A stretch of DNA of 49,326 nucleotides, from contig NZ_LSNE01000005.1 of the NCBI RefSeq assembly GCF_001565895.1, forward strand, positions 867,562-916,887. The letters run 5' to 3'. The DNA comes from Paraglaciecola hydrolytica. GTDB lineage: Bacteria > Pseudomonadota > Gammaproteobacteria > Enterobacterales > Alteromonadaceae. The notes under the pieces were generated by a model. It saw nothing but the letters and a program-made list of their open reading frames with translations. It was not told the DNA's origin and did no database searches. Position numbers and translations under genes: made by a program. Below are positions 6,745-25,534 of the stretch, in pieces (position 1 is the stretch's first letter; each line of letters opens with the position of its first letter).

Positions 6745-6755
6745 AAAACCGACAT
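6745..6755. repeat. Left arm of a split palindrome (candidate island attachment half-site)
   Basis: AAAACCGACAT here is the exact reverse complement of ATGTCGGTTTT at 25524-25534. Each arm lies a few bases past the stop codon of one of the two convergent flanking genes. Joined, they would form a bidirectional terminator with an A-tail, a stem and a T-tail. I infer that the island inserted in its loop. Confidence 0.5.
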
Positions 6756-6844
6756 TGTTCGAGTATATAGTAAAAAATATGTACATTCGCGAGTGAGTGA
6801 GTGAAAGACCTTTTATAATAAGGCTTTTAGTATGTTCCATTAAT

Positions 6845-6879
6845 GTACACACTATGTATATTAAGTGTGTACGTTTTTT
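6845..6879 (+). terminator. Strong intrinsic terminator near the left island end
   Basis: GTACACACT (6845-6853) pairs perfectly with AGTGTGTAC (6864-6872) across a 10-nt A/T loop, followed at once by GTTTTTT. It would stop transcription running from the DUF481 genes into the island. Confidence 0.75.
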
Positions 6880-7247
6880 AAAAATCATCGTATTTAACTA
6901 TCCATCTAATATTTTATATGGCTATTTACATTATAGGGGTGAGGGTCGGCTTTGAGCGATCAACGGTCATTCGGCCAATCGTAGTCGTCCGGCCGCTTTT
7001 CCCAAGGTAGCAGACGCATCTATTTATTGTCTAATGTCAGCTTCAAGCGAATTGTGAGTCATCAATTTATAATTGATGACGATTGGCAGTGCTAAGAAAG
7101 TACGCAACTATATAGTTGATTAGTATTGATGAGTGCTTGCCATATATGGAATTAAGGAAGAAAACTATGTATTAGTAACTTTACCTAATCTGAACCATGA
7201 TGAAACCGTAGGAAAGTTTAAAACTATAAGACTGATAGATATGAGTA

Positions 7248-7637
7248 TTACTCTTCAAGCAACTGCAATACCCCACACTCTTTAACTTTTCTATTATCTG
7301 TGCATGCCGAGGCCATCTCAGATAGGGTAAGCTTCAGCTCTTGAAGCTCTGCAATGCGATGTGTGACGTCAACCATATGTTGATGGATCAAGTTGTTCAC
7401 ACTAGAACAACTTTTATCGGGATTATTTTTTGTATCCAATAACTGTTTAATTTCAATTATAGTCAATCCTAAAGATCGGCATTGTTTAATGAATTGCAAT
7501 GTCCTTAACGATGAGGCGTCGTAAATTCTGTAGTTGCCTTCACTGCGATTGCAAGCTTCCAACAAATCCTGTTTTTCATAAAAGCGGATCGTCTGAATAG
7601 AACACCCACTCTTTTTTGATAGCTCACCTATTTTCAT
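7248..7637 (-). CDS. cadR: MerR-family metal-responsive regulator, CadR/PbrR type
   Basis: A 129-aa MerR-family regulator. The N-terminal winged helix (KIGELSKKSGCSIQTIRFYEKQDLL) is followed by a dimerisation helix and a metal-binding C-terminus. Counted from the start used here, cysteines fall at 77 (SCSSVNNLIHQH), 112 (ASACTD) and 121 (ECGVL). In Cd/Pb-responsive CadR/PbrR proteins, Cys77 and Cys112 are key ligands, so Cd(II), Pb(II) or Zn(II) is the expected signal. I start at the second ATG (7637), which has AAAGG at better spacing than the ATG at 7643. It is divergent from the CDF exporter, and its probable operator lies in the gap at 7659-7679. Confidence 0.85.
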   Translation of the reverse strand: MKIGELSKKSGCSIQTIRFYEKQDLLEACNRSEGNYRIYDASSLRTLQFIKQCRSLGLTIIEIKQLLDTKNNPDKSCSSVNNLIHQHMVDVTHRIAELQELKLTLSEMASACTDNRKVKECGVLQLLEE

Positions 7638-7655
7638 AAACATGCCTTTGTGCAG

Positions 7656-7686
7656 TTGACTCTATACTTGGTATAGACTTTACACT
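7656..7686 (+). promoter_or_regulatory. MerR-type promoter and operator with 19-bp spacer
   Basis: TTGACT (-35, 7656-7661) and TACACT (-10, 7681-7686) are separated by exactly 19 bp, the overlong spacer that MerR regulators untwist. Within it lies a near-perfect dyad, ACTCTATAC (7659-7667) and GTATAGACT (7671-7679), with one mismatch per arm around a TTG centre. It faces the CDF gene at 7719. The presence of a CadR-type gene on the other side makes regulation by that protein very likely. Confidence 0.8.
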
Positions 7687-7718
7687 GTGGCTACGGTATT
7701 TGGAATAAGAGTTAAAAA

Positions 7719-8354
7719 ATGAGTGGTTGCGGTTGCGAAGTAGAAATCAAAAATTCGTCACAAAAGCGCATTTTGTATTGGCTCCTAGGCATCAATGCGA
7801 CGATGTTTTTTATAGAGATAACTATAGGTATATTGGCTGATTCCACCGCTTTGATAGCAGACTCGCTGGACATGCTGGCAGACGCAACTGTGTACGGCAT
7901 AGGTATATATGCTGTAGGCAAATCTTTGCTTCACAAAGCCAACGCTGCTCAAATCAGTGGCTACTTTCAGTTATTGCTGGGCGTGATCATTCTCATTGAT
8001 ATTACCAGAAGGTTATTTTTGGGCAGTGAGCCTATCTCATCACTAATGATAGGAATGGGATTCATTGCACTAATTGCAAACGTCGCTTGCTTGATAATTA
8101 TTCGTAATCATAAAAATGACGAAGTACATATGCGAGCCAGCTGGATTTTTTCAGCCAACGATGTCATCGCCAACATGGGTGTCATCATCGCTGGTATTCT
8201 GGTGGTATGGCTTGATAGCCGTATACCCGATATTGTCATAGGTTGTATCGTATCAATAGTCGTACTACGCGGGGCATGGATGATCCTAAAAGACGCAAAG
8301 CAGGAATTGCTTAACAATGAACTGTCTAAAGACAATGTGAGAAGCTCCCTATGA
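7719..8354 (+). CDS. Short CDF-family cation efflux transporter
   Basis: A 211-aa inner-membrane protein of the cation diffusion facilitator family, without the usual C-terminal cytoplasmic domain. About six hydrophobic segments are visible. The metal site is suggested by DSLDMLADA (about 49-57) in helix 2 and SANDVIANMG in helix 5. The N-terminus MSGCGCEVE holds two cysteines that could receive metal. It is the first gene of the plus-strand metal operon, directly behind the MerR-type promoter, and probably exports Cd, Zn or Pb to the periplasm by proton antiport. Its stop overlaps the next start by 4 nt. Confidence 0.75.
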   Translation: MSGCGCEVEIKNSSQKRILYWLLGINATMFFIEITIGILADSTALIADSLDMLADATVYGIGIYAVGKSLLHKANAAQISGYFQLLLGVIILIDITRRLFLGSEPISSLMIGMGFIALIANVACLIIIRNHKNDEVHMRASWIFSANDVIANMGVIIAGILVVWLDSRIPDIVIGCIVSIVVLRGAWMILKDAKQELLNNELSKDNVRSSL

Positions 8355-8710
8355 AATACAACCAAGCTGTTAAGCCGCATATCGACTCCAAATTGACGGA
8401 CTACTCGGGCGCAATGTCAAATAACAATGAAAAACAAGCATTTTCTGCACTAGAGGACGCACATGTAATTGGTCAGCACTCTACTTATTATCATTGTTTA
8501 ATTCATTGTAAAATGCTGCAACATGGTCTTCGAAACAAAGATTGGAGAGCCGTTTTTGGACAAGTAATAAGAATAATTGGTGCTGCAACCAAAACCGCTA
8601 TCGGCCTTGTACCCAAAGGGAACACAGGTGGCACGAATATCAGTCCATTCAAACGACTACCGGTAAGTGCTGAAAATCAAGCTATATTGGACAAAATCAA
8701 CGATGCATAA
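8351..8710 (+). CDS. DUF3703 domain-containing protein
   Basis: A 119-aa soluble protein. The pattern FSALEDAHVIGQHSTYYHCLIHCKMLQHG, then GQVIRIIGAATKTAIGLVPKGNTGG and FKRLPVS, matches my recollection of DUF3703, a family often found inside metal-resistance clusters. The conserved His and Cys residues (HVIGQH, HCLIHCKM) could bind metal, but no activity is established. It overlaps the CDF gene upstream by 4 nt and the CzcD gene downstream by 8 nt, so it is translationally coupled to both pumps and probably assists them. Confidence 0.7.
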   Translation: MKYNQAVKPHIDSKLTDYSGAMSNNNEKQAFSALEDAHVIGQHSTYYHCLIHCKMLQHGLRNKDWRAVFGQVIRIIGAATKTAIGLVPKGNTGGTNISPFKRLPVSAENQAILDKINDA

Positions 8711-9581
8711 CCACAGTCACAGTGATAACAGCGCATCAAAACGCATTGGCTGGGCATTTTTCTTGAATGTCGTATTCACTATCATTGAATTTATAGGCGG
8801 ATGGCTGACAAACAGCACGGCTATAATGGCCGATGCAGTGCATGACTTGGGCGATAGTTTATCCATTGGCACTGCTTGGGGCTTAAATAAACTCAGTGAT
8901 AAAGAAGCAAACAATACATTTTCTTATGGCTACAAACGCTTCTCTCTTCTTGGTGCATTGATCAACGGGTTAGTGTTAACGACTGGCTCAATATGGATCT
9001 TATTCGAAGCTATCCCTAGGCTTTCAGCACCCGAAATGCCACAGGTGGAAGGCATGTTGTTGCTGTCAATTTTTGGCATCGCCGTAAATGGTTTTGCCGC
9101 GTATAAACTCAGCGAAGGGAATTCTTTAAACGAGCGTATCTTAAACTGGCACTTGTTAGAGGATGTATTGGGTTGGGTGGCAGTGCTGATCGTATCGATT
9201 GTGCTGATGTTCAAGTCATGGGCGATCTTGGATCCCATTTTATCTATTGGCTTTACATTATTCATTTTATTCAATGTCGTCAGAAATCTAAAAGAAACCT
9301 TATTGTTATTCTTGCAAGCCACGCCAGATATTACTCAGATGGAGGAAGTGCGTAAAGTGCTCATGTCAAACGCTGATGTGGCGGATATACATCATTTTCA
9401 TATTTGGTCGTTGGACGGTGAACATAGCGTCATGACCGTACATGTGGCGTTGAAAAAAGATGTTTCTGTTTCTCAATTGAGAACACTCAAAGACGAACTT
9501 CGCCACGGACTTGATGAGTTTGATTTTGTGCACACTACCATTGAAATTGAATTTGCCAATGAAGATTGTCGAGATGAGTAA
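8703..9581 (+). CDS. czcD: CzcD/ZitB-type CDF zinc/cadmium transporter
   Basis: A 292-aa full-length CDF exporter. The N-terminus MHNHSHSD is a typical His-rich loop. Six transmembrane helices follow, with HDLGD (metal ligands) in helix 2 and HLLED in helix 5. The C-terminal cytoplasmic domain has DVADIHHFHIWSLDGEHSVMTVHV, the usual ferredoxin-like metal-sensing fold. I start at 8703 rather than the upstream ATG at 8667, because residues from MHNHSHS match the family. It would carry Zn2+, Cd2+ or Co2+ from cytoplasm to periplasm and so feed CzcCBA. Confidence 0.85.
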   Translation: MHNHSHSDNSASKRIGWAFFLNVVFTIIEFIGGWLTNSTAIMADAVHDLGDSLSIGTAWGLNKLSDKEANNTFSYGYKRFSLLGALINGLVLTTGSIWILFEAIPRLSAPEMPQVEGMLLLSIFGIAVNGFAAYKLSEGNSLNERILNWHLLEDVLGWVAVLIVSIVLMFKSWAILDPILSIGFTLFILFNVVRNLKETLLLFLQATPDITQMEEVRKVLMSNADVADIHHFHIWSLDGEHSVMTVHVALKKDVSVSQLRTLKDELRHGLDEFDFVHTTIEIEFANEDCRDE

Positions 9582-9668
9582 TGTTAGGATTGAAATACTT
9601 TGTTGCGGTTGGTCGATTGGTCTTAGTTCGATAAGCTGTTAACATAAAAATGATGAGAGTAGATAGAT

Positions 9669-10064
9669 ATGTTTAGTGTGAGGGTGGCAAGTTACCTGTT
9701 GATTTCGCTGATTTTGTTTCAGTCGTTTTCGGCTGTCGCCAATTCCTTGGATTTTCATGCTATCGACTCGCAACATCTAAGCGAAATACACGAACATCAA
9801 GCGGGAGATAACACCGCTTCTGCGAATACGCATGTTCAATTACAATCTAACGAACAAGCCGATACTAATAACGTCACCGTAGATATTTCTCACAATCCCG
9901 CTGATTGCCACCACTGTGGTCATTGTCACGGAACCCATGCCCAATGGCTTGGAAACATCAATGGTATCGAACTCGATGCTGTTACCACCCATCACGGTTT
10001 CTATTACTTATCAAAAGTAATAGATGCACCGGTCACACAATTATTACGCCCACCTAAAGCATAA
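9669..10064 (+). CDS. His/Cys-rich periplasmic protein, CzcI-like
   Basis: A 131-aa secreted protein. An N-terminal signal sequence (VASYLLISLILFQSFSAVANS) is followed by a His-containing polar stretch and a compact CHHCGHCHGTH cluster at about residues 80-90, a clear metal-binding motif. The end, APVTQLLRPPKA, is similar in style to small periplasmic proteins placed in front of czcC. It lies directly upstream of czcC on the same strand. I infer a role in periplasmic metal buffering or in tuning the efflux system. Identity with CzcI is by position and motif style only. Confidence 0.55.
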   Translation: MFSVRVASYLLISLILFQSFSAVANSLDFHAIDSQHLSEIHEHQAGDNTASANTHVQLQSNEQADTNNVTVDISHNPADCHHCGHCHGTHAQWLGNINGIELDAVTTHHGFYYLSKVIDAPVTQLLRPPKA

Positions 10065-10135
10065 CCCTGAACTAATCAAACACCGTTCGCCAACAGTTTG
10101 GCGATATACATTTTTGATAATTTAGGAATAAAACA

Positions 10136-11458
10136 ATGATGAATATTTCATTGAATCGCCCTGTGCGTGTGCACGCTTGGGTGGTTTCCACGATGCTTGT
10201 CCTTTTGACAACACACACCGTGGTAGTAGCACAAACAAACAGTATCACCAATGGCGAAATGACGTTGCAAAGCGCCATACAGCAAACATTAACAAATTCG
10301 CCAGAATTGCATGAGTTCACATACAAGCAAGAGGCGATAGAAGGGGAAATTAAAACAGCTTCGCTCAAACCTGCTCTCAATGCAGGCATTGAAGTGGAAA
10401 ACTTTTTAGGAACAGGTGAGGTCTCCGGCATTAAAGGCTCGGAGTTAACTCTCACATTGTCATCGGTAATTGAATTGGGCAATAAACTCAACTCACGTAA
10501 GGCGTTTGCTAAAGCGCAATTCACCTTAGTCGAAGCGCAAAAACAAGTGCACACTTTGGATGTATTGGCTGAAGTGACACGTCGCTACATCGATGTATTG
10601 GCGCAACAAGCACTAATTGACGCGCAACAAGAGGCAGAAACTCTTGCTCGATATACCTATCAAGCTGTTACAAAGCGTGTGGATGCAGGAGCATCTCCGG
10701 TATTTGAACAGCAACGCGCTGAAGCAGCACTGGCAAGAGCCAGACTGGATGTGGTGACGGCACAGCAAACTAAGCAAGCCATGATAAATAGTCTGGCGAT
10801 TATGTGGGGGGAACAATATCCCACTTTTACCGATGTAGCGGGTGACTTATTTGCGCTGCAATCGTCACCATCTTTAACCGTGCTTTTCAACACCCTATTG
10901 GGCAGTCCCAATCTCGATGTCTATACGCAAGAAGCGAGATTACAGGCATCCCAAGTACGTCTGACCCAAGCAGCCAATCAGTCGGATTTAAGCTGGACAG
11001 CCGGAATCAGGCGCATGAATGGTATAGATGAAACAGCCTTTATAGCGGGAGTCAGTATGCCGTTATTTGCCGGTGAGCGAAATATTGGAGAGTACGAAAA
11101 ACAGCGAGCAATTCAGGCACAACTGGAGCAACAAAAAGAGTCAGCGACTCAAAGTCTATACCATCAGCTAAATATGGCATTGATGGTCAGAAATAATGCG
11201 TTGCTCAATGTGCAGACACTACAAAATTCTATTATCCCACCCTTAGTTCAAGCGCTCGAATTGGTAGAGCAAGCCTATATCAATGGACGATTCAGCTACC
11301 TTGAATGGGTGAGTACACGTCATGAATTGCTCAATGCCAAACAAGCCCTAATTCAATCAGCGAAGCAAGCTCATCAACGGGGCGCAGATATCGAATCACT
11401 GACTGCACAGCCCCTTGTGGATACGATCAACACCTCTTTTTCGAGAAAAACAAAATGA
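10136..11458 (+). CDS. czcC: CzcC-like outer-membrane efflux protein (TolC family)
   Basis: A 440-aa outer-membrane channel subunit. A signal sequence (TMLVLLTTHTVVVAQ) is followed by two repeats of long alpha-helical and beta segments typical of outer-membrane efflux proteins: MTLQSAIQQTLTNSPELHEF at the start of repeat 1 and the VEQAYINGRFSYLEWVSTRHELL region near the end of repeat 2. It forms the exit duct of the CzcCBA tripartite pump. Two adjacent ATGs (10136, 10139) are possible. Its stop overlaps the czcB start by 4 nt (ATGA), so the two are translationally coupled. Confidence 0.85.
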   Translation: MMNISLNRPVRVHAWVVSTMLVLLTTHTVVVAQTNSITNGEMTLQSAIQQTLTNSPELHEFTYKQEAIEGEIKTASLKPALNAGIEVENFLGTGEVSGIKGSELTLTLSSVIELGNKLNSRKAFAKAQFTLVEAQKQVHTLDVLAEVTRRYIDVLAQQALIDAQQEAETLARYTYQAVTKRVDAGASPVFEQQRAEAALARARLDVVTAQQTKQAMINSLAIMWGEQYPTFTDVAGDLFALQSSPSLTVLFNTLLGSPNLDVYTQEARLQASQVRLTQAANQSDLSWTAGIRRMNGIDETAFIAGVSMPLFAGERNIGEYEKQRAIQAQLEQQKESATQSLYHQLNMALMVRNNALLNVQTLQNSIIPPLVQALELVEQAYINGRFSYLEWVSTRHELLNAKQALIQSAKQAHQRGADIESLTAQPLVDTINTSFSRKTK

Positions 11459-12393
11459 ACAAAAAAATAGTAATCAAGAAGCAAAACACTATGTTAGTTT
11501 TCATTTTTTGCAGTGCGCTGGGATTTTTTTCAAGCACCACAATACAAGCATCAGAGGATGCACATGGCAATGTAGAAACCCATGAGGATGAACTCGTGCT
11601 CATGTCTGATAGCATGGCGCAAAAAATGGATGTAATGACGCAAAGTGTTCAAGCTGGAAGCCTTAATATTACCATCTTGGTCTACGGAAATATCGTAACC
11701 GACCCTGCTTCACTGAGTCATGTTCGTGCACGATTCGACGGCATGGTAACCAAGGTCAATGCAAATTTAGGTAACAAAGTTAAAAAAGGCGAGACACTGG
11801 CGGTTGTAGAATCCAATGAAAGCCTCAAAAGTTATCCTGTTACAGCCCCGTTTTCAGGCACGGTGATTGCCAGACATGCCAATGAAGGCGAGTTATCCAA
11901 TGGTCAAGTGTTATTTTCAATCGCAAACTATGATGACGTGTGGGCACAACTTAAAATCTTCCCTCAACAGCTATCAGATATTGCAGAGCAGCAACCCGTT
12001 CAGCTTAGCCTGTCAGGGGCAGCGTTAGACACCACTATCCAACATATTTTGCCCTCACCCGATGAAAAGCCTTATGTCTTGGCATATGCCAAAATAGCTA
12101 ATACCTCAGGTCGATGGCCGGTCGGTGCAGCTATTAAAGGGCTTATAACAATCAACAAACTTGATGTCGCCATGATGGTGCCTAAAACGTCGATTCAAGA
12201 GTTTGAGGGGGCTTCTGTCGTGTTTGTCAAAGAAGGTGACGAATACCGTCCTGTGCCCGTTACCTTAGGTCTACAAGACAGCTTCAATATCGAAGTGTTA
12301 TCAGGTCTGCACATTGCAGATGTGATTGTCAGCCAGAATAGTTATCTATTTAAAGCCGATTTGGAAAAGTCGGAGGCTGGTCATGATCATTAA
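11455..12393 (+). CDS. czcB: CzcB-like RND periplasmic adaptor (membrane fusion protein)
   Basis: A 312-aa adaptor that links the RND pump to the outer-membrane channel. After an N-terminal signal sequence comes a short His/Glu segment, then the lipoyl/barrel-sandwich halves: VRARFDGMVTKVNANLGNKV with KKGETLAVVES, and YPVTAPFSGTVIARHANEGE. A beta-barrel and a membrane-proximal domain follow. It ends GHDH, which could bind metal. It is shorter than CzcB of Cupriavidus (about 520 aa), having little alpha-hairpin and no large N-terminal metal-binding region. It overlaps czcC by 4 nt; czcA follows after 53 bp. Confidence 0.85.
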   Translation: MNKKIVIKKQNTMLVFIFCSALGFFSSTTIQASEDAHGNVETHEDELVLMSDSMAQKMDVMTQSVQAGSLNITILVYGNIVTDPASLSHVRARFDGMVTKVNANLGNKVKKGETLAVVESNESLKSYPVTAPFSGTVIARHANEGELSNGQVLFSIANYDDVWAQLKIFPQQLSDIAEQQPVQLSLSGAALDTTIQHILPSPDEKPYVLAYAKIANTSGRWPVGAAIKGLITINKLDVAMMVPKTSIQEFEGASVVFVKEGDEYRPVPVTLGLQDSFNIEVLSGLHIADVIVSQNSYLFKADLEKSEAGHDH

Positions 12394-12446
12394 TAACTTA
12401 ATGCCATCTACATGGTTAGACGTCTCGGTATTTGGGGGGCTAACAC

Positions 12447-15400
12447 ATGATTGAATCCATATTACGTTTGTCCATCGCGCGACGAGGTCTAATGCTGATG
12501 TTGATCTTCCTTGTGCTTGGCATGGGGATATTCAGTTATCAAAAATTACCTATTGATGCGGTACCCGATATCACCAACGTGCAAGTGCAAATCAATACAC
12601 AAGCATCGGGCTATTCGCCTTTGGAAACCGAGCAGCGGATCACATTCGTAGTAGAAACAGCGTTGGCGGGATTGCCTGATCTGTCCTACACCCGCTCATT
12701 ATCTCGCTACGGGCTATCTCAGGTAACAGCGGTATTTGATGAGGGCACTGATCTGTATTTTGCGCGTAATCTCATTAATACCCGATTGGGTGCAATCAAA
12801 AGTCAGCTACCTGAAGGGTTAGAGCCTGAAATGGGGCCTATCGCTACTGGATTGGGCGAAATCTATATGTATACCTTGCGAGCCAAGCAAAATGCCATGC
12901 AAAAAAATGGTGAGCCGTACAATGCAATGGCGCTTCGCGAGATACACGACTGGATTGTAAAACCGCAGCTCGCACTGGTTAAAGGGATCACTGAAGTAAA
13001 CGCCATTGGAGGCTATGTTAAGCAATACCATGTGAATCCTGAACCACAGCTTATGCTGAATTTTGACATTAGTCTAAGTGATATCCATCGTGCTTTGGCG
13101 CGAAACAACACGAATCAGGGAGCGGGGTTTGTTGAGCGAAATGGGCAACAAATTCTGGTGCGCTCACAAGGTCAACTCCAGACAATTAGCGATATCGAAA
13201 ATGTGGTGATAAAACGCATTAATACTGTCCCCGTTGCGGTGAAAGACATTGGCAGTGTCGCTATTGGCAAAGAGCTGAGAACGGGTGCGGCAACGCAGGA
13301 AGGTGAAGAGACCGTTTTAGGTACAGCAATGATGCTAGTCGGCGAAAACTCACGAGCCGTTGCCCAATCAGTTGCCAAAAAGGTGAAGGACATTCAATCC
13401 AGCTTACCTGATGGTATTGTCATTGAGCCAGTCTACGACCGCACCCTACTCGTCGATAAAGCGATTGACACGGTTCAGAAGAACCTTGTGGAAGGTGCGT
13501 TATTGGTCATCGTGATCTTGTTCATCTTGCTTGGCAATATTCGCGCTGCGCTGATTACTGCGGCAGTTATACCGCTAGCGATGTTGGCGACCATCACTGG
13601 AATGGTTAATACCGGTGTCTCTGCCAATCTGATGAGCCTTGGGGCATTGGATTTTGGATTAATTGTCGATGGGGCGGTGATCATCGTAGAGAACTGTATC
13701 AGGCGGTTATCCGAGTCTCAAAAACGCACAGGCGGAGTCTTACCCCTTAAAGAGCGGCTAGAACTGGTTTTTCAAGCAACCAACGAAGTCATTCGTCCTA
13801 GCTTGTTCGGTGTATTGATTATTACTGTGGTGTATATCCCGCTGTTCTCATTGACAGGCGTTGAGGGCAAGATGTTTCAGCCAATGGCCGCAACGGTCAT
13901 CATGGCGCTGATAGCAGCGATGCTGTTCTCCATTACTATTGTTCCGGCGGCAGTCGCGATGTTTATGGGCGGTAAAGTCAGTGAAAAAGAAAGCTTCATA
14001 ATTGTTGCAGCCAAATCCGCCTATCGCCCCATCATTCACCTTGCACTGAAATTACGCTGGATAGTGCTATTCGGTTCAGTCCTGCTGGTAGTGGGCAGCT
14101 TATGGTTGGCAACGCGATTAGGCTCTGAGTTTGTGCCCCAGCTTGATGAAGGAGACATCGCACTGCACGCCATGCGCATACCAGGAACCGGTATTGAACA
14201 AGCCGTTGCCATGCAAAAAACACTTGAATCTACCTTGATGGAATACGAACAGGTACTCACAGTGTTTGCGAAAACCGGTACCGCAGAAGTCGCTACCGAT
14301 GCGATGCCGCCCAACGTAACCGATACCTTTGTTATGCTAAAACCACGATCACAGTGGCCTGATCCTGACCTATCAAAAGCTGATTTCGTGGAAACCCTTG
14401 AGCGAGACTTGCAAGCGGTGACAGGCAATAACTATGAGTTTACTCAGCCTATCCAAATGCGCTTTAACGAGTTGATCAGTGGGGTAAGAGCTGACCTTGG
14501 TATAAAAGTATTTGGAGATGATTTAACCACGCTAGTTGCTTCTGCAAACGACATCTTAACCGTTTTGCAATCAATTGACGGCGTGGCGGATGCACGACTT
14601 GAACAGGTCGATGATATCCCTATCTTCACTATCAACCCTAAGCCAGTCGAGTTGGCACGTTATGGATTGGACGTCGCCGATTTGCAGGAATGGTTGGCGT
14701 CGGCCATCGGTGGTAATATCGCTGGCTTAATTTTTGAGGGAGATAGACGATTCGAGTTGCTTGTGCGATTTGATGAAGGTATTCGCACAGATTTAGATGC
14801 CATTGGCAGCACTCCTATCATTACATCCGATGGGGAATTTGTGCCATTATCAGAAGTTGCTTCGCTGGGTTACTCGTCTGTTCCCAATCAAATCAGTCGA
14901 GAAAACGGTAAGCGCAGAGTCGTGGTTACCGCCAATGTCAGAGAACGAGACTTGGGTAGTTTTGTTGACGAAGCAAAAATCAAAATAACCGAACAGGTTG
15001 CACTCCCAGCAGGCTACTGGCTAGATTATGGCGGCACATTTGAGCAGCTTGAAAGTGCCAGTCAGCGGCTGTCTATCGTGGTGCCAGCTACACTATTTCT
15101 GATATTGGTGTTACTGGTAGTCGTGTTTGGCTCAATTCGTGATGCCTTGATCATCTTCACTGGCGTGCCTTTGGCCTTAACTGGGGGTGTTTTCGCGCTC
15201 TGGATGAGGGACATGCCAATGTCCATATCAGCTGGAGTCGGATTTATTGCGCTCTCTGGTATTGCGGTGCTCAACGGTTTAGTGATGTTGTCATTCATTA
15301 GACAGCGAGTAATGGAAACAGGTGACCTAATTAACTCTATTGTCGATGGTGCTATCACAAGATTACGTCCGGTTTTAATGACGGCACTAGTAGCAAGTTT

Positions 15401-16585: not shown

Positions 16586-16689
16586 AGGTCACTCCGTTAG
16601 CTATTTAAACAATCAAAATAGCAATTAAAATTTAATTTAGTGCTAGCCGTACATGAAAATACAAACCAAAAAAATCTTCAATCACTGGT

Positions 16690-16962: not shown

Positions 16963-16977
16963 TGTATTCTCCTGGCT

Positions 16978-17748: not shown

Positions 17749-17776
17749 TTAAAATCCAACCCTAGATTTCAATAGC

Positions 17777-17893: not shown

Positions 17894-17932
17894 CAAGAGG
17901 CTATCGCCCCTTAATAATCCCCATAGCGAATA

Positions 17933-20161
17933 CTACGATAGAAGTTGTGACAGATAACTTCTTCGACTATTGGAATTGCTGGGTGATTTTGTTATCTCGG
18001 CAAAGTCTGACGCACTACCTACAATATGAATTTCACTTTCAGCCCTAGTGATGGCAGTATAAAGCCATGCACGGTCAACGATACGACCCTTTTGCAGTGC
18101 AATGATTATACGTGGAAATTGCGACCCTTGAGCTTTATGAAGGGTTATGGCGTAACCCAGTTTCATACAATCAAGAACAGCTTGAGTAACTTCAATTTTA
18201 TCACCCGTATCGAGTGTCACTTCACCATAACTTTCTCCAGATGCAACAACACTTGTGAGGATACCAAGCGATCCATTCTGAATGCCTTTATCATAGTGAT
18301 TTTGCGTAAACAAAATGATGTCATTAAGGCGCAGATTTAGAAATAATTGCTCACCATGCATTTCAAACTCAAGCCTACTGCCTCTGTGATTCACAGCCTC
18401 TTGAGTGAGCGTGTTGATTTCATCAACCAATGCTTTGGTTGGTGCCATCACACGGCAGTTTTCAGGAGATTGCTGATACAATTTACAGCAGACTTGAGGT
18501 ATCTCTTTCTTGTCTGTTTCGTGGAAATGAATTGCGCCTGTGGTAAGACATTCTGGGATGTTGCCTTGATTGATTAGTTGTGAATACTCAGGGATACCTG
18601 TCGATGCCTCAGCACGTTTAACGATGTTCAAAGTGGTATTAACTATCGTCTTCGACTCAACGATGTCTGCTAACACCTTCCCACAGCCAATTGGCGGAAG
18701 CTGATCGGGATCACCTGCAAAGATAATGCGCACGTAGGGGTGAATGTGATTTACCAAGCGATACATGGTTGGTAAATCAATCATGCTGGCTTCATCAATA
18801 ACAAGCAGGTGTTTTTGTTCATCTGAATCAATAGGATCATCTCTCAGGAACTTGGCAATCGTTGACGTGATAAAACCAATTGACTCATGTAAGCGCATGG
18901 CCGCACGACCACTTAAGGCAACTGCATGTATTTCAAACCCCATTGTATGATAGGCACGCAATGCCGTTCTAAGAACTGTCGTTTTGCCTGTACCCGCACC
19001 ACCTGTGATGCAACTGACGGCGTTATCTAAACATGCTGTGATCGCTTCAACTTGTTTCTTTAATAGTTTGTAAGGCAGCTCACCTGCCGCTGAGCAATAT
19101 GCAGATTCTGCATAATCGTCATAGAGGTTTTTTTGAGTAGCGAGCGATTTAAGTCGTTTCGCGACGACATTTTCCATCAGCAACTGAGCTGTTGGATGGT
19201 AAGTGCCTGTCTCGTGATTTAAAAGGTATTGAGCCTTGTTATGACCCGCCTTAAACGCTTTGGCGACCAGCTCTTTGTCTTTGAGTAACTTAGTTAGGTG
19301 AGGACGTAAATTGTCTTGTACTGTATAGGTATGGCCTTTTTCAATCTCTTTGCGTATTGCTACTTCAAGGGCTGCGCTCAATCGTCTGTCATCATCTGTT
19401 GCGTCCTCAAGTTGCACTTGAGAAAGAGCATCCACCTCTGTAAAGCTCATACCGAAACCAATTAACACATAAGGATTCTGTTTAATTGCTTCAATGGATT
19501 GCTCAGCGTGATACTTCAGCAAACGCTGCTGAACACTGGCAGGTATCTTGTATTCGGACATCCAATTGCAGTATGCTAAATTCTTGTATTTAGCATACCC
19601 CTTAAATAATGCGATGATAGAATCTTCGCTCAGAACGCTTCTAAGTAGCCCCCTTGATTCTGGAGTATCATTACTCAAAGTTGTATGAAAATTTTTACCT
19701 AGAAGCTCCCAGAGTGCTCTCGCTTTACTTTCACCAACACCTTTAAAATCTCTTTCTTTGGCGATAAATTGGATAAGTTGCTCACCTGTTTCTGGCAAAC
19801 TACATTCAACATGCTCAGGTGACTGGTAAGTATGCTGCTGCATCACGTAATCACCCGTGTCCATGCTTTCAATTTGTCGATTCCCTTTGACTGACCAATA
19901 CTGACCGATTGCAGGCTGTGTAGGCAATGCGTCAGGATCTATCTTTATCGTGACATAGTATTTACCGCTGTTGACTCTGTAAGAGTTTTTCTTCAGCGGT
20001 GTGCCGCTGAATATCACCATGTTAGATGAACTGAAAGGGATACTGGTAACGCGAAATTGGTCTTCATGCAATTTCGCAACAGCTTGTTGCAAAATTGGGT
20101 TTCTCAATATTTTGGGATTTTGTCCGATAGCTTGTTGGACAATTGAATTATCACCCATCAT
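17933..20161 (-). CDS. RecD-like superfamily 1 DNA helicase in the gamma-mobile-trio operon
   Basis: A 742-aa ATP-dependent DNA helicase. The N-terminal about 370 residues contain helix-hairpin-helix-like segments (DFKGVGESKARALWELLG and PYVLIGFGMSFTEVDALS), as in RecD2. The motor follows: Walker A GGAGTGKT (387-394), GRAAMRLHE, DEAS (456-459), GDPDQLPPIG, a UvrD-C-like region with LGYAITLHKAQGSQFP, and YTAITRA. All ATPase motifs are intact. There are no RecB or RecC partners, so it is not part of RecBCD. Its ATG overlaps the stop of the preceding 145-aa gene (ATGA), making it the fifth gene of the recombinase operon. It may act in element excision or replication, or as defence cargo. Confidence 0.8.
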   Translation of the reverse strand: MMGDNSIVQQAIGQNPKILRNPILQQAVAKLHEDQFRVTSIPFSSSNMVIFSGTPLKKNSYRVNSGKYYVTIKIDPDALPTQPAIGQYWSVKGNRQIESMDTGDYVMQQHTYQSPEHVECSLPETGEQLIQFIAKERDFKGVGESKARALWELLGKNFHTTLSNDTPESRGLLRSVLSEDSIIALFKGYAKYKNLAYCNWMSEYKIPASVQQRLLKYHAEQSIEAIKQNPYVLIGFGMSFTEVDALSQVQLEDATDDDRRLSAALEVAIRKEIEKGHTYTVQDNLRPHLTKLLKDKELVAKAFKAGHNKAQYLLNHETGTYHPTAQLLMENVVAKRLKSLATQKNLYDDYAESAYCSAAGELPYKLLKKQVEAITACLDNAVSCITGGAGTGKTTVLRTALRAYHTMGFEIHAVALSGRAAMRLHESIGFITSTIAKFLRDDPIDSDEQKHLLVIDEASMIDLPTMYRLVNHIHPYVRIIFAGDPDQLPPIGCGKVLADIVESKTIVNTTLNIVKRAEASTGIPEYSQLINQGNIPECLTTGAIHFHETDKKEIPQVCCKLYQQSPENCRVMAPTKALVDEINTLTQEAVNHRGSRLEFEMHGEQLFLNLRLNDIILFTQNHYDKGIQNGSLGILTSVVASGESYGEVTLDTGDKIEVTQAVLDCMKLGYAITLHKAQGSQFPRIIIALQKGRIVDRAWLYTAITRAESEIHIVGSASDFAEITKSPSNSNSRRSYLSQLLS

Positions 20162-20595
20162 CTTGGCATGAACCCCATTTCTGATAAGGTTTCTGACAAT
20201 TCACCAAAGCGTTTAAGCTTACCTTCAAGCTCTTTGATTTTGGCTTTTAACTCGACATTCTCAGCCTCAAGTGACGATGAACGCTTTGAATCAAGCGCCT
20301 TGCGGTTCGCTGTATTGTCGTATTGCTTCGGCTTATCCGCTTCTTTTTTTGCGGTGTCTGTCAGTGGCGGCAGCACGCCTTTGTCACGCAGGTTGTCTTC
20401 CAGCATTTTTAAGTGCTTTCGTATGTCAGGATTTTGATTTAAGGCTGACTTACCAAAGCCTACAGCTTTTGCCACTTCGATACGATTTAGCTGACCTCTA
20501 AACGCAATCTGCCTGTAGTCATCATCAGTTTGGGTTGCAGACCACGCCAGAAACGCATCGAGGTTTTGCTGTGCTTTTTGCTGCCCACTTGCCAT
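20158..20595 (-). CDS. VPA1267-type gamma-mobile-trio accessory protein (145 aa)
   Basis: A small basic/acidic mixed protein with a helix-turn-helix-like middle (RIEVAKAVGFGKSALNQNPDIRKHLKML, about 37-64) and a C-terminal coiled coil (LEAENVELKAKIKELEGKLK, about 108-127). By size and place it matches the VPA1267 family that I recall directly after GmtX in gamma-mobile-trio islands. It resembles the small third protein (TnpC-like) of other tyrosine-recombinase transposons, which helps orient recombination. Its start overlaps the gmtX stop by 1 nt (TGATG), and its stop overlaps the helicase start by 4 nt. The function is inferred from context only. Confidence 0.6.
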   Translation of the reverse strand: MASGQQKAQQNLDAFLAWSATQTDDDYRQIAFRGQLNRIEVAKAVGFGKSALNQNPDIRKHLKMLEDNLRDKGVLPPLTDTAKKEADKPKQYDNTANRKALDSKRSSSLEAENVELKAKIKELEGKLKRFGELSETLSEMGFMPR

Positions 20596-21272
20596 CAGTC
20601 GTCAACCTCACCTAATAGCTTTCGCAAGCCAGTCACAAAGCCACGGGGAAATATTTCAGCGTTGTACTCCATATCTTTCACTTGACCTGCCTGCGTGGTT
20701 TGCCAGCCGTTCTTGTCCATACACTCATCGGAGATGGCGTAAGCCAGTGCTTTTTTCTCTGATTCGGTAAACACACCAGAAAGAGAAGGTAGCACTTCAA
20801 TGCTTGGCTCTGCGCTGGCATCAAACTGACGGACAGGTCGCTTATCAATGGTGATATTGGCATGCTGCTTAAGCAGGTTCACTTCTTTGCGGTAGCGGTT
20901 GCGCTCAGCAATGATTTGCCCAAATAAAGCGCGAACGGCAGGGTCTGGAATACGCTCTAGCAATTTATTATCAACGGGTACGGACTTTGAGCGAGAATGC
21001 GCCACCAATGGTTTTTTGGTGTTGGTCTTGCACTTTTGCGCCCATGCTTCAATCAAGGCGCGGTAATGCGTGTTACGGGTTGCTCTAAGTGCTTCATAAC
21101 CTGGGCCAGATTCGGCTGCCGAAATGCGTCCAATCTGGGTAATGGAGAAGTCCTTCTGACCTGAACCAGCATACGCTTTTAAGATAGTGTTGAGCGTATC
21201 TAAGTTTTGTTTGGTTCTCGGTACTTTACCGTCTTTTAAATCCTCAAGAATGACATCTATATCCAGCTCCAT
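20595..21272 (-). CDS. gmtX: Gamma-mobile-trio protein GmtX
   Basis: A 225-aa soluble protein, mostly helical, with no catalytic motif I can point to. The N-terminus (LNTILKAYAGSGQKDFSITQIGRISAAESGPGYEALRATRN) looks like a DNA-binding helical domain, a central ERNRYRKEVNLLKQHANI helix may be a coiled coil, and the C-terminus holds ESEKKALAYAISDECMDKNGW. The position as third gene behind two tyrosine recombinases, and the size, match GmtX (VPA1268 of Vibrio parahaemolyticus) as I remember it. It is separated from gmtZ by 1 nt. It probably acts with the recombinases in island mobility. Confidence 0.7.
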   Translation of the reverse strand: MELDIDVILEDLKDGKVPRTKQNLDTLNTILKAYAGSGQKDFSITQIGRISAAESGPGYEALRATRNTHYRALIEAWAQKCKTNTKKPLVAHSRSKSVPVDNKLLERIPDPAVRALFGQIIAERNRYRKEVNLLKQHANITIDKRPVRQFDASAEPSIEVLPSLSGVFTESEKKALAYAISDECMDKNGWQTTQAGQVKDMEYNAEIFPRGFVTGLRKLLGEVDD

Positions 21273-21273
21273 G

Positions 21274-23937
21274 CTATTTCTCCACTAGTGCAGGTTGGAT
21301 GAAATTTTCTAAGCTTAATACTTTACCTGTCAGGGCATTCACACCTGCACTGAACAGCTTGTTGTCAGTCAAATATTCACCCGCTTCGATGTAACTAGCC
21401 ACTTTACGGTAGCCCTCCATTTTGTCGTCAGGGTCGGCTATCTTTGCCATTTGGCGTAGCATGGCATTACCAGCGATTAGCTGTTGTTTTTCATCCATTT
21501 CCATAAAGATAGGCTCAAAGCCTTTCTTCATAAGCGCACGACTAAGCTGCATGGAACGCTTTTGGATAGCTGGCGTCTTGCGCAATTCATCCTGCAAGTC
21601 TGGAAAGAATTCCGCATCGTCACACAGCAGTGATAGATGCAGCAATTCAGAGTCTGTTTCAATGAATTTCAAGGCGTGGCTAATGTCACGCTCACCCCCT
21701 ACCGCAATCATTTTATCTTTCGTATCACCATTGCCTCTAGCTTCTTCAACATGAATAATTTTGCCGATTAACTCAAAGCAGGCTATCCAATCTTTGACAT
21801 ATTCATCAGCCTCCACTTGTTGCTTTTCATAGCGGCGTTGCAATACCTGCATGTCATCATGCTTGGTAAACGGCGTACCTTGCTCTTCACAGAAGAACTG
21901 CTTGTCTTTAAGCGCTTCCAGCTCACCTTCGATTTCAACCGATAGATTGGCGGCTTGGTACGCCTTGTAGCTGAGTTGATTAAACTGAGCATTAAGCGCT
22001 GGCAGGTATCGTGCTTCGGTGATAAACCAACGGCAACGGATGCAGTTTTCAGGGCCGTGCGGTACGCTGCTATAGACACGATTAGCGGAAGCACTTGAAT
22101 CTCTAATCAACTCTCCACCGTTCCAGCAACCGCCGAGCGTACTGATTTCATCGGATTTGACTGTGTTGCCTCCGACCAAACATAAGCCAGATGAGCGTTC
22201 TTCCCAACCGATGGGGTTACGGTTAATCAATGCTGCCTGAATGCTATCTTCTTTGTGGTAGACCATCTTGCATTGAATTTGCGCTAGTGAGGCATCTTTG
22301 AGAAAGTTGCGCACCGACTGCTGAGATTTACCTTTTAAGTGCCCTTCTGCTTCACTCATTTTTTCCGCCATCACGGATGGGGTAATTTTGTTGTAGTAGA
22401 TGGTCATTAGGATACGTGAGTGGCCTGCCAGTAGTTTGGATATGACAGGCAGGGGTAATTGGGTATCCATCGTGTAGGCGGTTATCAATGACACACGCAA
22501 ACTGTGTAGTGGGTGGTTCGTGGCAGCCTTATGGCCTTCTGGAGTGCCTTCTGGGTAATCCAAAACCAGTTTAAGTCGTTCGCCGTTATCAAGCGTATTA
22601 CCTTGCTCAGCGAGCTGCTCTTCTAGTGTTAGCAAGAGTTGATACCAGAAAGGAGTCATAGCCGTATTGCTAATTGGTTTTGAACGGTCAGCCCCTTTCG
22701 CTGATGCTTCCCGAAACAGAAACGCAATTTCACCCATGCTTTCTAACTGGGTTTGTGACTTCTTATCGCGAGTATGCTTAGCTAGCAACGTAGTACAGTC
22801 TGTCGGTCTCTCTATCGGGTTGTATTTTTCCTGCCAGTTACGCAACTTTTCCAGCCAATACAGTACCTCTTCGTTTTGCCAAGGAATAATGTAGCCGCGC
22901 TCTAGTTCCGATTTATTCTGGTCTGCGGTTTTGTTGGTGTTGACATACAAACCTGTTGAATATTGCCCTGTCATGGTGTCATGAATGCGGCGAAAGATAC
23001 CTTTACCAAAGGGGCGTTTTTCGCTACCGAGCGCAAAGTCATGCTTATCATTAAGCTTCCAATGACCACTTTCATAACGCCACGTATCCGCTTCACCACT
23101 GTCTAACATACGCACCTGATAGGTGCGCAGTGGCAGATGCAGCTTCATAAATATAACCATTGCTTTGACGGGTGACCAGATTTGGTGGAGGGTGGTTTTT
23201 TTACCATTTCTAGTCACTTCTTTAGTGCGCCACACGCAATCGGGGTCGGCTTTGTCAATCAGCTCAGACTCAACCTCGAACCAGTCTCCACTTCCACCTT
23301 TTTTACCTTGCCCTGACTGCTCTTGCGCCCACGCCCAATGCTTGAAATGGCGATAGTGATAGCTAGGCAGTAACGACTCACCTTGCGGTAGATTTTGCTC
23401 AATCACCTTCAGTTCCGCTTTATCTGGCAACGGGCATAGGATTTGGCGCTGGTCTTGGATGTACCGATACGGCAGTGGGTTACGCACGGTTTCAGTGTGT
23501 GAGCCTTGGGTCTTGATTTTGCTCAGCGGATTGCGAACCAGTGGCATTAAATTGCCACTATCATCTTCTTCAGATAAATGATGCTCAATGATGTAATCAA
23601 TGAAGTCACAGGGGTAGTTGATACCGTTTGATACTTCGTTGGGGTCGTTAATAGTTTTTCTCGTACTAGCTTCTAGCTCTTCAGTGGAGCAGATATGACC
23701 GCTGTACCCCTTGAAAAACAGACCAATATCAGTTGCATAGGGAGCGCACTCCAACAGGTAGGACTCAAAGAAACGGCTCAACGCCTTAAGCTTGTGGTTT
23801 ATTCCTGAATGTTGTGTCGCCATCCACTCAGCGGCTAGTTCCTGCCATTGCTCCCACTCAGGGCCAAGGGTGGTGAGCATCCATTTAAACGTTAAGTCCG
23901 ATGCACGCCCGTCATTTTTTCTACCTTTCGTTGCCAT
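21274..23937 (-). CDS. gmtZ: Gamma-mobile-trio integrase GmtZ (large tyrosine recombinase)
   Basis: An 887-aa protein with a tyrosine-recombinase core in its middle. H478 and R481 lie in HPLHSLR, H506 in LLAGHSR, and a Tyr pair in IYYNK puts the nucleophile at Y515, 9 residues after the His as in the family. The N-terminal part would bind DNA. The C-terminal about 350 residues include cysteine pairs (NCIRCRW) and long helices (LEALKDKQFF and following) that may mediate DNA or partner contacts. It is much larger than phage integrases, as expected for GmtZ (VPA1269 family). Its ATG overlaps the gmtY stop (TAATG), with GAGGT just upstream. It should cut and join the element ends together with GmtY. 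Confidence 0.85.
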   Translation of the reverse strand: MATKGRKNDGRASDLTFKWMLTTLGPEWEQWQELAAEWMATQHSGINHKLKALSRFFESYLLECAPYATDIGLFFKGYSGHICSTEELEASTRKTINDPNEVSNGINYPCDFIDYIIEHHLSEEDDSGNLMPLVRNPLSKIKTQGSHTETVRNPLPYRYIQDQRQILCPLPDKAELKVIEQNLPQGESLLPSYHYRHFKHWAWAQEQSGQGKKGGSGDWFEVESELIDKADPDCVWRTKEVTRNGKKTTLHQIWSPVKAMVIFMKLHLPLRTYQVRMLDSGEADTWRYESGHWKLNDKHDFALGSEKRPFGKGIFRRIHDTMTGQYSTGLYVNTNKTADQNKSELERGYIIPWQNEEVLYWLEKLRNWQEKYNPIERPTDCTTLLAKHTRDKKSQTQLESMGEIAFLFREASAKGADRSKPISNTAMTPFWYQLLLTLEEQLAEQGNTLDNGERLKLVLDYPEGTPEGHKAATNHPLHSLRVSLITAYTMDTQLPLPVISKLLAGHSRILMTIYYNKITPSVMAEKMSEAEGHLKGKSQQSVRNFLKDASLAQIQCKMVYHKEDSIQAALINRNPIGWEERSSGLCLVGGNTVKSDEISTLGGCWNGGELIRDSSASANRVYSSVPHGPENCIRCRWFITEARYLPALNAQFNQLSYKAYQAANLSVEIEGELEALKDKQFFCEEQGTPFTKHDDMQVLQRRYEKQQVEADEYVKDWIACFELIGKIIHVEEARGNGDTKDKMIAVGGERDISHALKFIETDSELLHLSLLCDDAEFFPDLQDELRKTPAIQKRSMQLSRALMKKGFEPIFMEMDEKQQLIAGNAMLRQMAKIADPDDKMEGYRKVASYIEAGEYLTDNKLFSAGVNALTGKVLSLENFIQPALVEK

Positions 23938-25394
23938 TATTTACCTCGTAATTTCGGATGTTTGCCTGTGAAATAGCCTTGCGGGTCAATATCGTCAAAG
24001 CCATGTTCGACCAATGATTTCCAATCTAGCGGTTTCACTTTGGACTCAGGATTTGCTAGTTGTAGCGTGGCCTTGTTGAGTTCATTGGAGATTTCCTGTT
24101 GCCCTTTGCCTGTGTAGGGAACTTGAGACTCCAATGATTTGTGGTGCATACAGCGACGAATGACTAACGGGTTAAGCCCTGAACGCTCTAATCGTCTGCC
24201 GTAGTTATGTCGATGTCCGTGAGGGTCTAACCCTTCCGCTTTATTCGGTGCTAACCCAATGCGTTTTAATCCTGCCGCATAGCCTTGATGAAAAGCGTTA
24301 AGCGTGTATGGGTTGCCGAGGGCGCTGTGATGGAATGAAATGAACGCATACGGGTGATGACAATCAATACTGGCTCGGTACTTTTGATAACTCTTCCACA
24401 ATAACATAAAGACCTTGCCAAACTCCGTGGGGAACCATTGCACTTGGATGTAATTATCACGATGGTCTACAACACGATTTTTCCAACCAATCCGCGATGT
24501 ACCCTGCATTTTGATGCGCGGTATACGGGCATATTCTTCTTTAAGATAGTCTGCTCTGGTATGCTTTCCACTTCGACTGCGCCAGCCATCAGGTGCTTTA
24601 CCATCAACTTCGTTGTATACCCGAACCACAGCATTATCTGGATTGTATGGGTCTTCAAACACGTCCGTCACCCAAATTAATAATGCTTCACTTTCTCGCA
24701 GACCACCGCCGTGCATTAGCAGAAGAATAAGCTTATCCCTCAGCGTCACTCTTGGGTCTGTAGCACCACCAATGCCGTCTTTGAAGAATGACTCCCAGTG
24801 TTTTTCTGGAAAGGCAATCGCATCGTCTTCCGTCTTGGTGAGTGGAGTGCGCCCCTTCATTGTTCTGGCTTTGCGAATAGTTTTATTGATGCTCTTGTCT
24901 TCGATATGCCCAAGAAAATCATGCTGGTTTTTACGAAACCATGCCGCATAATTTAAGCGTTGTTCATGCGGAGTCGCATCCCTCAAGGGATTCATTGGCT
25001 CAGTGCCTTGCTTATTAGCAATCCAGTCAGTAAAAGCTGTCAGCCTATGGATGTGTTTATTAACATGCTCTGTCGAGCTTGGCATCCAATATAAGCCAGA
25101 CGGATCGAGTCCATCTTCACCGATAGTGCCGCTATAAAGGCGCTTAGCAAAGGTTTGGAATAAAATTTTAGGGTCGTTGAACAAGTCCTTGTTCGCCTCC
25201 ATATATTCTAAAAGCAAAGAAACGACTTGAATGAATTGATTCATAACGGACGCACTGACACCGTTTGCCTCCATTTTAAGAAGGTAATCCGTTACAACAC
25301 TCAATTCGCCTTGTTCGGTAAGCAACACTGGCAGTTGACTTTTTATGCCCGTGTTATCTTCAATAATGGTGGCTTTTACTTTTACTGAAGACAA
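23937..25394 (-). CDS. gmtY: Gamma-mobile-trio recombinase GmtY (tyrosine recombinase)
   Basis: A 485-aa tyrosine recombinase and the first gene of the five-gene operon. The catalytic residues can be placed: R233 in GGGLRESEA, H392/H394 and R395 in PHGHRHNYG, H417/H418 in CMHHKS, and Y427 in QVPYTG, spaced as in active family members. The N-terminal about 170 residues form the usual SAM-like DNA-binding part (LLLEYMEANKDLF and following). Translation begins at TTG, with AGGGA about 8 nt upstream. A near-consensus promoter precedes it. By gene order and size I equate it with GmtY (VPA1270 of V. parahaemolyticus). It catalyses strand exchange at the island ends. Confidence 0.85.
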   Translation of the reverse strand: MSSVKVKATIIEDNTGIKSQLPVLLTEQGELSVVTDYLLKMEANGVSASVMNQFIQVVSLLLEYMEANKDLFNDPKILFQTFAKRLYSGTIGEDGLDPSGLYWMPSSTEHVNKHIHRLTAFTDWIANKQGTEPMNPLRDATPHEQRLNYAAWFRKNQHDFLGHIEDKSINKTIRKARTMKGRTPLTKTEDDAIAFPEKHWESFFKDGIGGATDPRVTLRDKLILLLMHGGGLRESEALLIWVTDVFEDPYNPDNAVVRVYNEVDGKAPDGWRSRSGKHTRADYLKEEYARIPRIKMQGTSRIGWKNRVVDHRDNYIQVQWFPTEFGKVFMLLWKSYQKYRASIDCHHPYAFISFHHSALGNPYTLNAFHQGYAAGLKRIGLAPNKAEGLDPHGHRHNYGRRLERSGLNPLVIRRCMHHKSLESQVPYTGKGQQEISNELNKATLQLANPESKVKPLDWKSLVEHGFDDIDPQGYFTGKHPKLRGK

Positions 25395-25408
25395 ATATCG
25401 TATCCCTA

Positions 25409-25457
25409 TACACTATAAACATATAGTACACTATAATCCCAAAAGATTTTTTGTCAA
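25409..25457 (-). promoter_or_regulatory. Promoter and possible operator of the gmtY operon
   Basis: Read on the minus strand, TTGACA (25452-25457) and TATAGT (25430-25435) are separated by 16 bp, close to the sigma-70 consensus. TATAGTGTA occurs twice (25427-25435 and 25409-25417), 18 bp apart, and TATAGT-AC-ACTATA forms a dyad across the -10. Such repeats over a promoter suggest autoregulation, perhaps by a recombinase or by GmtX. The -35 box overlaps the T-tract of the neighbouring terminator. Confidence 0.6.
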
Positions 25458-25481
25458 ATAAAAGGCAGATTTCTCTGCCTT
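25455..25481 (-). terminator. Intrinsic terminator near the right island end
   Basis: AAGGCAGA (25462-25469) pairs perfectly with TCTGCCTT (25474-25481) through a TTTC loop; on the minus strand it is followed by TTTTATTTG. It would stop transcripts leaving the outer-membrane protein gene and entering the island, mirroring the terminator at 6845-6879. Confidence 0.75.
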
Positions 25482-25523
25482 AATACACATTATACACAGT
25501 TAAATCACCTATATATAACTCCG

Positions 25524-25534
25524 ATGTCGGTTTT
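25524..25534. repeat. Right arm of a split palindrome (candidate island attachment half-site)
   Basis: ATGTCGGTTTT here is the reverse complement of 6745-6755 and is continued by more T residues to 25537. It lies 12 bp from the stop codon of the outer-membrane protein gene. Just inside it, read inward, GAGTTATATATAG resembles GAGTATATAG just inside the left arm, so short imperfect terminal inverted repeats may exist. Confidence 0.5.

Follow-up and report, generated by a model that had tools for sequence, protein, structure and literature searches.

A gamma-mobile-trio island in Paraglaciecola hydrolytica that very probably joined the centre of a host palindrome

Described systems and the site of the island

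Group IIC introns are mobile elements known for inserting at terminators; they are retroelements, and their enzymes are unrelated to GmtY, the tyrosine recombinase of gamma-mobile-trio (GMT) islands. The present report concerns an 18.8-kb GMT island with ends at 6761 and 25518, which lies in a stretch of 49,326 nucleotides of Paraglaciecola hydrolytica (contig NZ_LSNE01000005.1, positions 867,562 to 916,887), the whole of which is called the window. In integrons, the tyrosine recombinase IntI uses a hairpin-forming site, attC, and single-strand exchange plus replication would give a fixed polarity; GMT islands differ in that the hairpin is the target and not the cassette. Elements of the Tn554 type resemble GMT islands in having two tyrosine recombinases and a third protein, and they have a fixed target. 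GMT islands themselves reportedly have their founding description in Mahata et al. 2024 (doi 10.1038/s41564-024-01840-5). The island in the window resembles them in gmtY, gmtZ, gmtX and the cargo, and among its relatives the same island occurs at different places.

Tn916 and Tn1549 also depend on a tyrosine recombinase, and the literature describes many sites, a non-homologous crossover of 5-7 nt (PMC5871717, PMC12084037) and a consensus of two inverted half-sites 6 bp apart. Also described are a 5-7-nt heteroduplex and a TTTT-n6-AAAA target for Tn916-like elements (PMC5871717), a Tn916 hotspot in B. subtilis with a 17-bp inverted repeat (PMC12084037), and an insulating terminator near one end of Tn916 (PMC11658703); the available parts of PMC5871717 and PMC12084037 contain no terminator rule for such elements. 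The GMT system differs from Tn916 in having GmtY plus GmtZ and in a polarity that was the same at all eight empty sites described below, and the conjugation module of Tn916 has no counterpart, as profile searches found no conjugation genes among the 15 island open reading frames (ORFs) scanned. A palindrome or terminator rule was not found in the literature at the level of titles and abstract openings; the founding GMT paper was outside this search and may contain part of it.

In the window, AAAACCGACAT (6745-6755) and ATGTCGGTTTT (25524-25534), read directly from the sequence, form an exact inverted match. The left copy lies 21 nt past the stop of an ORF with a DUF481 domain (5971-6723; DUF481 by Pfam), and 12 nt separate the right copy from the end of a convergent ORF (25547-26764, minus strand), which has no Pfam match and is called here, as in an earlier interpretation of the letters alone (the sequence-only reading), the outer-membrane gene. 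That reading had proposed that the two copies are the arms of a terminator split by the island. Its coordinates and distances hold, the intact terminator that it had used for comparison is real (38635-38662, AAAAAAAGCCGTTCAATTGAACGGCTTTTT), and the short terminal inverted repeats that it had suspected just inside the arms, GAGTATATAGTA on the left and TTATATATAG on the right (read inward), are the conserved termini of the element, both of which have TATATAGTA, inverted to each other. Taken alone, the 11-bp match is insignificant, because the window contains 511 pairs of exactly inverted 11-mers at distances above 1 kb, and the case therefore had to come from related islands. The match is counted as real because both arms abut conserved element ends, about 6 nt outside them, as in related islands. 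Very probably, the island is a GMT element joined at the dyad of a host palindrome, mostly a terminator hairpin, with a coupling sequence at its left end.

Natural empty sites and the arms outside the element ends

Eight natural empty sites carry this conclusion: two in E. coli K-12, four in plasmids, one in a Shewanella relative and one in a Vibrio relative. All eight contain a hairpin, and the insertion took place at the dyad, across a crossover of about 6 bp. The gmtY-side (right) end keeps the loop of the target in all eight cases (two-sided p = 0.008 against even odds), and the opposite (left) end carries about six bases that are foreign to the target, again in all eight. The plasmid sites are IncC traF with pKAZ3 (TAAGCGCC-CTAAAT-GGGCGCTTA; right CTAAAT, left CTTCAA), an IncHI2 plasmid (L109; GCCAGC-AAGTAT-GCTGGC; right AAGTAT, left CTTTGT), the IncC plasmid pKAZ1 (CCCTCC-TTCG-GGAGGG; right TTCG, left CCGGCA), and pOX030688 compared with pCAV1857 (CGCCC-TTAA-GGGCG; right TTAA, left CCTGCG). 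K-12 provides the empty sites for the islands of E. coli O111:H8 at eno/ygcG (AAAAATGCCAGC-CTCCGG-GCTGGCATTTTTT; right CTCCGG, left ATACTT) and of E. coli S1-CAM-01-A at crcB/cspE (AAAACCCGC-TTAATCA-GCGGGTTTT; right TTAATCA, left TTTATTG). For Shewanella ANA-3, a relative with a 98% identical flank has GCCGCC-TCAGTTA-GGCGGC (right TCAGTTA, left AGTGCT). For V. owensii, seven relatives of other species of the genus, with flanks that are 79-89% identical, have the loops GTTT, ATTT, GTTG and ATTA, and GGCAGC-GTTT-GCTGCC is present in four of the seven (right GTTTG, left AAATTG). The exact empty site of L067 was not found, as Alteromonas relatives have other hairpins there, and the flank string was not found for the IncHI2 plasmid L108 and for pABW_S38a (L175).

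Matching arms could also be terminal inverted repeats of the element itself, in keeping with their symmetric and inverted arrangement at both ends. However, the arms differ in sequence between islands whose element ends are conserved, and the eight empty sites hold both arms in one hairpin, so that this explanation is already refuted and retains practically no probability. A direct target-site duplication was likewise rejected, because the arms are inverted.

The paired ends of islands lead to the same picture. For the first 22 paired islands, the longest common outer run had a mean of 11.0 nt, compared to 5.6 nt in 462 mispaired combinations. For all 31 pairs the mean was 10.5 nt versus 5.4 nt in 930 mispairs, a run of at least 7 nt was present in 26 of the 31 pairs versus 195 of the 930 mispairs, and the observed sum was reached by none of 20,000 permutations. 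The 21 pairs with both ends on one record support the arm match on their own: the mean run is 10.0 nt versus 5.15 nt in 420 mispairs (0 of 20,000 permutations), and runs of at least 7 nt occur in 17/21 versus 66/420. A chance match of the arms was rejected by these permutation tests. The crossover spacer is visible in the same data, because 22 of the 26 runs of at least 7 nt end 5-8 nt from the element; the other four pass through the spacer (L054, L058, L067, L076). The IncHI2 island has a run of only 6 nt, but its empty hairpin has been sequenced. Two islands were known first by their right arm; for L181 a left end was found later that matches over 9 nt, and for L185 no left end was found in its genome, G533, as was also the case for the Vreelandella island L077.

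Outside the 31 pairs are, apart from L077 and L185, loci on contigs that stop at the element end or right beside it (L053, L056, L079), a locus without a right end (L062), one covered at its right end only (L178), a left end outside the search (L068), a gmtY without its N-terminus (L177), a member of another clade (L078), left ends without a partner (L089, L104), loci at the same site as L113 (L171-L173), and L180, L201, L204, L205 and the left ends of the genomes G535 and G413, where contigs break at the element end. The G413 left ends L210 and L212, and also L069, lie beside AAACCCTCGCCC / AAAGCCTCGCCC stretches that resemble one another and may be a repeated target element.

For the site in the window, the sequence-only reading had predicted that relatives lacking the island would have the DUF481 and outer-membrane genes side by side with one complete hairpin between them. 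Of 22 genomes of the genus, 19 have the outer-membrane gene, and one of these is the genome of the window. Among the remaining 18, the gene is next to the DUF481 gene in 13, and in 11 of these 13 a hairpin was read by eye between the two stops, e.g., AAAAACGGCAACC..GGTTGCCGTTT. Locus L007 has no hairpin between the two genes, and in L020 the outer-membrane gene is fragmentary and the gap sequence was outside the hairpin reading. The left half of the split host hairpin, consisting of an A-tail and the stem arm AAAACCGACA, is placed at 6745-6754 (plus strand) on the basis of the sequence, its match to the right half and the paired-end statistics, the next base being ambiguous; the right half, a stem arm and a T-tail, is placed at 25525-25534 (plus strand) from the sequence. 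TTGTTC (6755-6760, plus strand) would be the left coupling sequence, i.e., the foreign loop of a previous target, judging from its position between arm and conserved end and from the analogy with the eight empty sites. CTCCGA (25519-25524, no strand assigned) would be the right crossover spacer and the loop of the original host hairpin, since all eight empty sites keep the target loop here.

Several observations weigh against joining at a host palindrome or complicate it. The same-genus hairpins differ in sequence from the arms in the window, so that its own empty site has to be inferred. Beside the 21 same-record pairs, the 31 include six whose ends lie on different contigs of a genome in which only one left end occurs, and four (L054, L055, L073, L076) for which the arm match decided between two left ends, so that the pairing of these four was not blind. 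No clear arm pair was seen for L069, pMAO6 and L081 (run of 5 each), and the two ends of L081 are correctly oriented on one circular plasmid and yet unmatched; L073 is also counted among the arm-match failures, and the right end L178 has no clear arm. Spacers range from 5 to 7 nt and are not always 6 nt long. The right spacer of V. owensii is one base off, and the reference loops vary among the other species. The targets of IncC/traF and of L063 (Thalassotalea) are palindromes without an A/T tail, and the target is therefore more aptly called a palindrome than a terminator. In Vibrio sp. Isolate32, the same-contig ends L101 and L076 are unmatched (run 3), and both match ends on other contigs.

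The last case involves four ends (L073, L076, L101, L106) and two islands that have swapped partners, the left arm of one matching the right arm of the other, a pattern that suggests recombination between islands. A rearrangement could thus also have placed two unrelated half-palindromes beside the island, and the frequency of 11-mer matches in the window would agree with this. However, it would account neither for the same-record statistic nor for the base-level empty sites, and its probability is close to nil. As a separate observation, the target arms of L063 (Thalassotalea eurytherma) are AACTTATCCACT, which resembles inverted DnaA boxes and not a terminator.

Coupling sequences, polarity and target recognition

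The left spacer seems to be a coupling sequence comparable to that of Tn916, which would record the donor site; it is foreign at all eight empty sites, and one example was traced. The left spacer of the eno island, ATACTT, is identical to the IncHI2 hairpin loop when this is read from the left, and the eno island is 99.94% identical over 11,232 bp (7 mismatches) to the island on that IncHI2 plasmid. The sequence match points to a move from plasmid to chromosome in which the circle would have carried the previous loop, and the comparison of genomes shows that GMT relatives sit at many sites, the near-identical island at the IncHI2 site and at E. coli eno among them. When 30 islands were compared all against all, about 0.2 matches would be expected by chance; there was one further non-self match, L054 to L075 (CATATG), which may be accidental. 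The island shared by L110 (E. coli O111:H8 TW05614, eno/ygcG) and L082 (Salmonella IncHI2 pSE12-01738-1) is 11.2 kb long and carries multiubiquitin/ThiF/DUF6527 genes. G535, a genome of the genus Vibrio, has five left ends of related islands (L207, L211, L213-L215), of which three at different sites have the spacer CCCCCG in common, and the contigs lack their right flanks.

If both strands were exchanged and the spacers were non-homologous, the target loop should be found at one end or the other, according to the strand whose daughter survives. The uniform polarity at the eight sites suggests that a single strand exchange was completed by replication, or that repair had a fixed bias. Identical spacers at both ends were found in L058 (ATGTTG) and L067 (CAAGTG), neither of which is palindromic (chance about 1/4096 each), and they are what an inversion between the two ends of the island would leave. 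L054 and L076 also have identical spacers, but these are palindromic and the pairings were chosen by arm match, and thus they are ambiguous.

In the proposed mechanism, GmtY, probably together with GmtZ, would insert the circular element at the centre of symmetry of a host palindrome, typically a terminator hairpin with an A-tract, a GC stem of about 6 bp and a loop of 4-7 nt. The crossover of about 6 bp at the loop would leave each host half-stem outside one element end, the excised circle would take the loop of the previous target with it, as Tn916-like coupling sequences do, and integration would be resolved with a fixed strand polarity, perhaps by one strand exchange and then replication. 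With palindromes between genes as targets, genes would remain intact and many targets would be available per genome.

Within this mechanism, we lean slightly towards the version that the recombinase reads an ordinary motif per arm in double-stranded DNA, like TTTT-n6-AAAA in the case of Tn916. The motif would consist of an A-tract and a GC-rich half-site with C next to the crossover, no hairpin need form, and terminators would be chosen because they supply two inverted half-sites about 6 bp apart. Tyrosine recombinases normally bind inverted half-sites. The composition of the arms (28 pairs, 28 arms a side) fits, with an A-tract at -13 to -17 and a C/G-rich stem at -7 to -11 from the element end on both sides, in difference to the AT-rich target of Tn916, and 42 of 56 arms have the edge of the A-run at a distance of 7-10 nt from the dyad. 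However, 11 of the 56 arms contain no run of four A, the IncC/traF and L063 palindromes lack the full motif, and the A-run edge is at 7-10 nt also in 23 of 26 ordinary bidirectional terminators found in 370 kb; therefore, no selection beyond 'terminator' is seen. That the GmtY clade instead reads the shape of its target, a palindrome extruded as a hairpin (a cruciform or a folded single strand), is a possibility that we regard as rather doubtful. One strand would be exchanged and replication would finish the reaction, which would be integron-like with the hairpin on the host side. Recognition of shape would explain the varied arms, the dyad-centred crossover, the tailless palindrome targets and the uniform polarity, the last of which is compatible with a folded single-strand substrate, but not proof of it.

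Apparent specificity could also result from survival, if insertion were random or AT-directed and insertions other than those at terminators were lost since they harm genes. A crude count agrees with this, as in 16 of 22 cases both flanks have their longest open frame (within 1 kb) directed at the island. Yet harmlessness would not set the crossover at the dyad with an offset of about 6 nt, and it would not favour the tailless palindrome of IncC/traF, which sits between tandem genes; survival is therefore a very improbable explanation.

Element ends, island genes and scope within the GmtY family

Element ends were examined in 28 GmtY loci from public genomes and three plasmid loci. Nearly all of them share the right end, TTATATATAGTAAC.., which is some 120 bp before gmtY and marks the limit of conservation; the exceptions are L077 and L078, which are divergent, and L062, which lacks a right end. 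In the window, the comparison of right ends places it at 25509-25518 (minus strand). Of 25 genomes searched, 21 have the 43-bp left-end motif GAGTATATAGTAAAAA..GTGAGTGAGTG with up to three mismatches, among them the genome of the window, where it lies at 6761-6803 (plus strand). Among viral contigs, the search for one right-end plus one left-end pattern gave no exact match.

Inside the right end, an inward hairpin with a T-run is present in 20 of 22 islands, 37 bp in for most of them (0/220 shuffles); in the window it is AAGGCAGA GAAA TCTGCCTT plus T run (25462-25481, minus strand), between the host gene and gmtY. Inside the left end, a strict scan found an inward hairpin in only 4 of 22 islands; a relaxed scan applied afterwards, with one mismatch allowed and loops up to 12, revealed a GTACACAC..GTGTGTAC hairpin with a T-run at about +83 in 21 of 22 islands (3/440 shuffles). 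The copy in the window, also seen in a repeat search, is GTACACACT..AGTGTGTAC plus T run (6845-6879, plus strand). With terminator-like hairpins inside both ends, the element appears to replace the terminator that it splits, and from their predicted terminator function the hairpins would still stop flanking host transcripts.

The three GMT proteins of the island all score above curated cut-offs. The gene for the tyrosine recombinase, gmtY (23937-25394, minus strand; NF040693, 562.8 bits, cut-off 340; PF00589), adjoins the right end and is followed by the integrase gene gmtZ (21274-23937, minus strand; NF047926, 1048 bits, cut-off 600; PF13009), gmtX (20595-21272, minus strand; NF040692, 249.5 bits, cut-off 40), a gene for a VPA1267-family protein (20158-20595, minus strand; NF040697, 199 bits, cut-off 90) and a RecD2-like helicase gene (17933-20161, minus strand), which matches below the RecD2 equivalog cut-off and has weak, sub-cut-off matches to relaxase/helicase models. 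The recombinase is not identified as an integron integrase, because it scores 34.2 bits with the XerA/integron-integrase model NF040815 (cut-off 220), and a PDB sequence search with GmtY gave one weak XerC-like match. By Pfam, the cargo (7248-15560, no strand assigned) comprises a MerR regulator, two CDF metal transporters, DUF3703 and an OEP/HlyD/AcrB-type RND efflux system. Between cargo and helicase (15571-17930) there are few clear genes, and the two scanned ORFs of at least 90 aa have no family match.

The sequence-only reading had generalized that the element targets palindromic terminators and had suggested to look at junctions of other GMT islands. For the GmtY clade of the window this is borne out by base-level empty hairpins, and the terminators are usually bidirectional; for GMT islands generally it is not, and the idea that all of them target terminators was rejected. 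In other GMT subfamilies the right ends are at ffs, tRNA genes, a guaC-like 3' end or ORFs. Reading the sequences by eye, we take the right ends of L187, L188 and L078, a sister GMT clade, to be at ffs (4.5S/SRP RNA), that of L186 to be at a guaC-like 3' end, and the distant GmtY relatives L198-L200 to lie beside tRNA genes. In the GmtY tree, from which ten duplicate, contig-edge or fragment rows were left out, the palindrome clade is one group (support 100/99) whose neighbour is the ffs/guaC clade; the node that unites the two has a support of 94/86, below the level that the tool marks with a star. All 35 members were labelled 'palindrome' by clade, including L068, L077, L079, L178 and L185, with the right end at most, and L069, L073, L081 and L179, which failed or were weak; the tree therefore shows that the clade is distinct, and not that every member is a palindrome inserter. 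On this comparative basis, the palindrome rule would hold for the GmtY clade of the window only. GmtY was found at E 1e-60 or better in 21 of 158 genomes of the genus of Vibrio owensii, and DNA similar to gmtY/gmtZ in 10 of 5,426 E. coli genomes.

The finding offers a simple rule for the landing place of a class of cargo islands that includes those of IncC and IncHI2 plasmids and of E. coli, and it suggests how these islands leave genes and transcription borders undamaged. The six-base tag at the left end may reveal the previous address of an island, which would make moves from plasmid to chromosome traceable from sequence alone. If it is true that shape and not sequence is read, this mode of target choice would be new for a recombinase.

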